Source of the DNA: an uncultured marine group I thaumarchaeote
GTDB taxonomy: Archaea > Thermoproteota > Nitrososphaeria > Nitrososphaerales > Nitrosopumilaceae
Direction: 5' to 3'
DNA: 63,767 bases
NCBI GenBank assembly: GCA_902566725.1
Contig: CACFJZ010000003.1
Coordinates: 1-63,767 of the forward strand
Shown: piece by piece, positions 50,851-52,898 of the stretch
How the letters are laid out: every line of letters begins with the position of its first letter
Position numbering within the stretch: the first letter of the stretch is position 1
Notes under the pieces: generated by a model
The model's input: the letters and a program-made list of their open reading frames with translations, nothing else
Database searches by the model: none
Told to the model about the DNA's origin: nothing
Position numbers and translations under genes: made by a program

Positions 50851-50973
50851 TGGTCCCCACTGAAGGATTTGAGCCTTCGACAACCCGGTTTCTGTATGCC
50901 TAGTAGACCACTGTTATTCAGCCCTAAGCCGACAACTACAGCCGGAAGCTCTACCAGGCTGAGCTAAGTGGGG
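50851..50973 (-). tRNA. tRNA-Tyr (anticodon GTA) with canonical-position intron; CCA encoded
   Basis: Minus strand: CCCCACT TA GCTC AGCCTGGTA GAGC T TCCGG CTGTAG | ~46-nt intron | A CCGGG TTGTC GAAGG CTCAAAT CCTTC AGTGGGG A CCA. Intron about 50890-50935, between positions 37 and 38. Confidence 0.92.
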
Positions 50974-51709: not shown

Positions 51710-52123
51710 ATGAGTAAGCCTTCTGATTTGGGTTCATTAAAAATTGGTTCCTACATACTCTTACCTGTAGGTGATCAACCAACGGGAGAACCTTGTAGAA
51801 TATCTGAATATGATACAAGTAAACCAGGAAAACATGGTGCAGCAAAAGCACGTATTGTTGGAGTTGGTGTATTTGATGGAGCAAAACGTCCACATGTTGG
51901 TCCTGTCAGTATGCAAGTTCATGTACCATTAATTGATAAAAGAACTGGCCAAATCATTTCAATGACCGGCTCTGAAATCCAAGTTATGGATGGCGAAACA
52001 TTTGAAACTGTTGATATTCAAATGGTTGATGAAGAAGTAGATGGAAAATTAGAGCAAGGACAAGATGTTGAATATTGGAATGTTATGGGAAGAACTAAAA
52101 TCATGCGAATTAAAACATCCTAA
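51710..52123 (+). CDS. Translation initiation factor aIF5A
   Basis: GSYILLPVGDQPTGEPCRISEYDTSKPGKHGAAKARIVGVGVFDG with hypusination-site region. Confidence 0.95.
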   Translation: MSKPSDLGSLKIGSYILLPVGDQPTGEPCRISEYDTSKPGKHGAAKARIVGVGVFDGAKRPHVGPVSMQVHVPLIDKRTGQIISMTGSEIQVMDGETFETVDIQMVDEEVDGKLEQGQDVEYWNVMGRTKIMRIKTS

Positions 52124-52126
52124 ATT

Positions 52127-52191
52127 GGATGCTAATGATGATTGGAAAAGCCAACTGATTTTTGATGAAGATTATGAGTTTTGAGGCATCC
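52127..52191 (+). ncRNA. C/D-box sRNA, predicted guide for tRNA-Met(CAU) C34 2'-O-methylation
   Basis: GGATGC-ta-ATGATGA(C)-TTGGAAAAGCCAA-CTGA(D')-TTTT-TGATGA(C')-AGATTATGAGTT-TTGA(D-like)-g-GCATCC. Terminal stem GGATGC/GCATCC. The D guide is complementary to the CUCAUAA anticodon loop. Confidence 0.85.
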
Positions 52192-52208
52192 TATTCTTTT
52201 GTTTTACA

Positions 52209-52898
52209 ATGAAATTAGCTGCATTATTCTCAGGTGGAAAAGATAGTACCTATGCAATACATCTTGCAAAAAAGTCTGGTTACAGCGTAGATGTTTTATT
52301 AACAATTTTTCCACATAGTGATGAAAGCCATTTACTACATTATCCAAACATTAGATTTACTTCTTTACAATCTGAATCGATGAAGATTCCACAACTAACT
52401 GAACAATTAACATCTACTTATACAAAAAATGAATCTGACGCATTGGATAGACTAATTATTTCTGCAAAAGAAAATTACTCTATTGATGGAATTGTTCATG
52501 GTGGAATTCTTAGTGAATATCAAAAAGATAATTTTTCAACAATATGTGAAAAAAATAATCTAAAAATAGTCTCTCCAATATGGAATATGGAACCTGAATC
52601 TTACATGAAAGAACTATTGTCTGAAAACTTTGAATATGTTATCTCTACTGTAAGTTCTGATGGCCTAAATGATTCTTGGCTTGGACGCACAATTCAGAAA
52701 AATGACTTGATTGAACTTAAAAAATTACAACAAAAATTTGATTTTAATCTAAATTTTGAAGGTGGGGAAGCTGAAACATTTGTAACAAACTGTCCCTTAT
52801 TTGAAAAACCTATCATAATACAAGATTCAAACACTGAATGGGATGGTTATAGGGGAAGATTTGAAATATTGGAGGCAAAATTAAAAGATAATGCTTGA
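52209..52898 (+). CDS. Diphthine-ammonia ligase (Dph6-like) PP-loop protein
   Basis: LAALFSGGKDSTYAIHLAKKSGYSVDVLLTIFP...DGIVHGGILSEYQK...FNLNFEGGEAETFVTNCPLF. Confidence 0.9.
   Translation: MKLAALFSGGKDSTYAIHLAKKSGYSVDVLLTIFPHSDESHLLHYPNIRFTSLQSESMKIPQLTEQLTSTYTKNESDALDRLIISAKENYSIDGIVHGGILSEYQKDNFSTICEKNNLKIVSPIWNMEPESYMKELLSENFEYVISTVSSDGLNDSWLGRTIQKNDLIELKKLQQKFDFNLNFEGGEAETFVTNCPLFEKPIIIQDSNTEWDGYRGRFEILEAKLKDNA

Follow-up and report, generated by a model that had tools for sequence, protein, structure and literature searches.

A 65-nt element between the genes for aIF5A and a dph6-type diphthamide synthase of an uncultured marine group I thaumarchaeote (Nitrosopumilaceae) is very probably a standard double-k-turn archaeal C/D box sRNA, predicted to guide Cm34 of elongator tRNA-Met through its D guide and Cm2510 of 23S rRNA through its D' guide. 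We analyzed it within a 63,767-nt stretch of DNA (contig CACFJZ010000003.1), whose full length is called the window below.

Locus and box layout

The element (52127-52191, + strand), defined by its box layout, covariance model R1, and synteny, lies within an 85-nt gap (52124-52208). It starts 3 nt past the aIF5A stop and on the same strand as both neighbors, aIF5A upstream (51710-52123, +; Pfam PF21485 and PF01287) and the dph6-type gene downstream (52209-52898, +; PF01902). The boxes C, D', C', and D occurred in that order with guides between them (GGATGCT-A-ATGATGA(C)-TTGGAAAAGCCAA-CTGA(D')-TTTT-TGATGA(C')-AGATTATGAGTT-TTGA(D)-GGCATCC), and we confirmed both the sequence and the boxes of the C-D'-C'-D layout that the initial annotation had placed in this gap. 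The C box ATGATGA (52135-52141, +) has the consensus RUGAUGA and is followed by the D' guide TTGGAAAAGCCAA (52142-52154, +), the D' box CTGA (52155-52158, +), the C' box TGATGA (52163-52168, +), and the D guide AGATTATGAGTT (52169-52180, +). The D box TTGA (52181-52184, +) is a relaxed form, UUGA and not CUGA, and relatives carried TTGA, ATGA, GTGA, CTGA, or GCGA at this place.

In the terminal (C) helix, the 5' strand GGATGCT (52127-52133, +) pairs with the 3' strand GGCATCC (52185-52191, +), which the D box directly adjoins as in a k-turn. The perfect 6-bp stem described initially was present, but the helix really comprises 7 bp when the U52133-G52185 wobble is included. The sixth C-box base and the first D-box base are G-U in the window sRNA; among relatives this combination was GU in 12, AU in 8, CG in 2, and other in 27, and was thus standard in only 45%. 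The sixth C-box base varied with the first D-box base in some lineages, and the latter was unconstrained in family f1. No Rfam family reached its gathering score for the element, and the best sub-threshold matches spanning the site were C/D box families, e.g. sR41 (23.8 vs 54 bits).

The D guide and elongator tRNA-Met

The host genome is a 64% complete assembly in which 27 tRNA genes were found. Two of these are CAU tRNAs, an intron-containing elongator tRNA-Met (L023; G000:C25:3072-3103) and a tRNA of the Ile2 type by resemblance (L011). Once spliced, the anticodon arm of the elongator reads CCAGA-CUCAUAA-UCUGG. The D guide paired with ACUCAUAAUCU of the elongator through 11 Watson-Crick pairs and one G-U pair, the latter between N+1 and G30 of the spliced tRNA. 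The proposed pairing with the CUCAUAA arm was therefore borne out, except that G, not A, faces N+1, giving 11 Watson-Crick pairs and one G-U rather than 12. In this register the C of CAU fell at guide position N+5 (G52176) as had been proposed, and this C is C34 of the host's own elongator tRNA-Met. Only 3/5000 shuffles of the D guide reached an 11-nt match in the host's own tRNA and rRNA.

Aligning the guide to the CAU tRNAs, a check suggested in the initial annotation, gave 11-12 bp with the elongator (-14.9 kcal/mol) and a much weaker duplex with Ile2 (-8.8 kcal/mol). For specificity we set the elongator against the Ile2 tRNA from the host genome and an initiator from a related genome (G203), both of which the guide paired with far less well; the host's own initiator was not found among the tRNAs of its 64% complete assembly. 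Discrimination of the elongator comes from U39 and C40, which are paired by N+10 and N+11, and N+10 mismatches C39 of both Ile2 and the G203 initiator. The target arm ACTCATAATCTGG was invariant among the elongator tRNAs found in the family, so a covariation test of the D guide is impossible within it. We are confident in elongator tRNA-Met as the target, for which the guide register predicts Cm34.

The tRNA-Met intron

We examined 19 distinct tRNA-Met sequences, and all 19 have their intron at the 30/31 junction. Each of the distinct introns allows a 4-bp helix (UGCC/GGYA) with a 3-nt bulge on either side, giving a bulge-helix-bulge, the form recognized by the archaeal splicing endonuclease. 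We rejected the intron placement given by ARAGORN in favor of 30/31, since all 19 introns allow this helix with its 3-nt bulges. With the intron at 30/31, the 11-bp guide target lies wholly in exon 2, and the guide can pair without the intron. The haloarchaeal guide, in contrast, pairs partly with the tRNA intron, and methylation must therefore precede splicing there (PMC2584109). In G203, tRNA-Met apparently has its intron at the usual site following position 37, and here too the guide pairs across the region.

The Nitrosopumilaceae elongator tRNA-Met genes examined (L023:1501-1616, L119-L148) always contained an intron, in two length classes of 15-19 and 40-41 nt. In the precursor, pairing is possible between GAG of the D stem and the CUC that later becomes part of the anticodon loop. 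The window also encodes a tRNA-Tyr(GTA) with a ~46-nt intron (50854-50973, -), which a default tRNA scan missed; Rfam detected it, as did ARAGORN when introns were permitted.

The D' guide and 23S rRNA

The initial annotation had left the D' guide without a target. A probable one is 23S CGGCUUUUCC, near the peptidyl transferase center. In the host genome the D' guide formed 9 uninterrupted pairs with 23S UCGGCUUUUCC, placing N+5 (G52150) on the C at 23S position 2616. The A-loop counterpart of E. coli U2552 is 42 nt downstream of this C, which makes the C the equivalent of E. coli C2510 and homologous to human Cm4456 and Arabidopsis Cm2880. Published tabulated data place Cm at the corresponding site of Arabidopsis (25S 2880), human (28S 4456), and an alga, and have no entry for it in P. 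abyssi or E. coli (PMC11542601). Matches of the D' guide at tRNA loci L019 and L013 were rejected as they needed several G-U pairs or lay in the flank or on the wrong strand.

Match length alone was not significant, with 264/5000 shuffles as good as the 9-nt D' match, so we judged the target by its site and by joint change of guide and rRNA. Joint change was counted with search patterns that left both bases free. Guide N+7 (A52148 in the window) and its rRNA partner were A-U in 40 genomes (f1) and G-C in 8 (seven from f8 and G011 from f4), with none mismatched. This joint change was probably one evolutionary event, and we therefore regard it as good rather than overwhelming evidence. The alternative in which the element is a real C/D sRNA for tRNA-Met Cm34, but its D' guide has no rRNA target and is kept for RNP structure or for another target, draws on the non-significant match length, on an A at N+2 opposite C2507 in the host genome, and on the Pyrobaculum tRNA-directed sRNAs with one orphan guide, known from published work as summarized in PMC7994747. 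It leaves unaccounted for the joint change between families, the placement of N+5 on a C that is methylated in eukaryotes, and the invariance of the D' guide core in 49 sequences, and we consider it quite unlikely. A D' guide that targets the C2510 equivalent, predicting Cm2510, is the probable reading.

Conservation in Nitrosopumilaceae

Using the window's aIF5A we found 80 relatives, of which the nearest are Candidatus Nitrosopelagicus and nearly all carry a Nitrosopumilaceae or marine group I label. One record, labeled as a Binatia bacterium (L082), encodes a Nitrosopumilaceae-like aIF5A and is probably mislabeled or a mixed assembly. The element was recognizable in 62/80 relatives, mostly directly past the aIF5A stop and sometimes displaced, and R1, built from relatives, found the sRNA in 145/151 genomes and 22/22 genera of the family. 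Conservation at the aIF5A-dph6 junction, which had been put forward as a check, thus extended to the box motifs and the guide in most Nitrosopumilaceae. An alignment of 49 sequences showed no change in the D' and C' boxes or in the D' guide core GGAAAAGCC, and nearly all of GATTATGAG was constant too; the variable parts were the helix and the D'-C' spacer. In the terminal helix 98.5% of cells were paired and 24 cells had changed on both sides, compared with 1-7 such changes for control versions made by sliding the structure, and 5/7 helix pairs had changed on both sides.

The layout TGATGA-N8-16-CTGA-N2-10-TGATGA occurred once in the window vs 0.03 expected from shuffles, and the D guide core in reverse complement (ACTCATAATCT) was likewise seen once vs 0.06 expected. 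We rejected a chance origin of the box layout, mainly because of the conservation across the family and the helix covariation.

A role in regulating the aIF5A-dph6 transcript instead of guiding, for example as a 3' UTR k-turn bound by L7Ae, would suit a position between two same-strand genes just past the aIF5A stop, and archaeal L7Ae has been reported to bind mRNA k-turns (PMC5539422). A k-turn, however, does not need two invariant guides with target registers, and in several relatives the element lies away from the aIF5A stop, at offsets of up to 2385 nt, with both guides kept, which makes this explanation very improbable.

Secondary model matches at L268-L270 (E ~1e-8) were rejected as copies of the element because they belong to a different C/D sRNA. 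This second conserved sRNA occurs in one genus of the family and has a D guide of about GTTTGCCGAATT and a D' guide of about AGAAAAGCTATAT.

Guide divergence in Nitrosopelagicus-type relatives

Some Nitrosopelagicus-type sequences have altered D guides. Guide N+6 is a C opposite A35 in one sub-lineage (L044, L047, L057, and G007), with the tRNA of G007 unchanged; N+2 is a mismatched A in L045, L046, L048, and L051; and a deletion has removed guide bases in L049. The covariance model had no match in four genomes of the Nitrosopelagicus genus (G048, G112, G127, and G144), most of which are incomplete. Such decay in same-genus relatives would agree with a relic that no longer works in the host genome, but there each guide still fits its target and neither helix nor boxes are damaged, so we give this idea almost no credence. 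Nitrosopelagicus-type lineages in which the tRNA-Met guide has decayed or is apparently missing offer a natural test of it.

Families f8 and f4

Both guides were present in 12 genomes of family f8, probably Nitrososphaeraceae, with mostly canonical D boxes (mostly CTGA or CCGA). The elongator tRNA-Met of f8 reads GACTCATAA, then TC, and the D guide is kept. The sRNA has aIF5A directly upstream in G203 and dph6 directly downstream in G301, and with this neighborhood kept, the locus is probably ancestral to Nitrosopumilaceae and f8.

Family f4 (L149-L152) kept the D' guide. Its D guide is a different one, which fits 23S in the vicinity of C2501, with 9 bp including one G-U in genome G011. We tentatively suggest that the f4 D guide was retargeted between tRNA and rRNA.

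Comparison with known guides

C/D guides for Cm34 of tRNA-Met are known or have been predicted in Haloferax and Pyrococcus (PMC2584109). Pyrococcus sR49, as cited in that paper, resembles the window sRNA as a C/D sRNA predicted for tRNA-Met Cm34; it comes from another phylum, and the likeness is drawn from the boxes and the predicted target. The human box C/D RNAs SNORD97 and SCARNA97 also serve Cm34 of elongator tRNA-Met (PMC6601510) and are much longer than the window sRNA. The Rfam SNORD97 model gave a weak sub-threshold match at the window site (18.6 vs 45 bits), which reflects common boxes and target rather than demonstrated homology. For the D' guide, the comparison with eukaryotic 28S Cm4456 and Arabidopsis 25S Cm2880 is one of site, the predicted target being the same rRNA nucleotide (PMC11542601). 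According to a review, archaeal guides evolve fast and Pyrobaculum tRNA-directed sRNAs have one target-less guide (PMC7994747). The window sRNA differs on both points in having unusually stable guides and, besides its tRNA target, a probable rRNA target.

We found no report of Nitrososphaerota C/D sRNAs in the open-access literature, which leaves out most subscription journals. The Haloferax volcanii guide for tRNA-Met Cm34, reportedly described by Joardar and colleagues in 2011, is like the window sRNA a stand-alone, non-intronic C/D sRNA for Cm34 on an intron-containing elongator tRNA-Met. Guides for tRNA-Met Cm34 are as such already known, and the present sRNA is a newly described case. One sRNA serving both a tRNA and an rRNA is unusual.

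Proposed function and implications

As a C/D box sRNA with two targets, the element would be transcribed either from a promoter of its own or along with aIF5A, trimmed to ~65 nt, and, judging from its boxes, bound by L7Ae, Nop5, and fibrillarin. In elongator tRNA-Met, the D guide would pair with anticodon-arm positions 30/31 to 41, placing C34 at N+5 for conversion to Cm34, while the D' guide would pair with its 23S site, placing the C2510 equivalent at N+5 for conversion to Cm2510. Methylation would probably make AUG decoding stricter or protect the tRNA, and may bear on the structure of the peptidyl transferase center.

The predicted 23S target raises the possibility that archaea too carry an rRNA methylation so far recorded for plants, human, and an alga. 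A broader proposal, which we think rather unlikely, is that one sRNP couples two modifications, one of the AUG-reading wobble base and the other of the ribosome's catalytic center, the D guide of f4 having apparently been retargeted to 23S C2501. If true, f4 would represent a traceable guide switch between rRNA and tRNA in which the partner guide stayed fixed. The wobble modification of tRNA-Met is common to haloarchaea and humans, and with this sRNA the ammonia-oxidizing archaea, among the ocean's most abundant microbes, gain a testable candidate guide for it.
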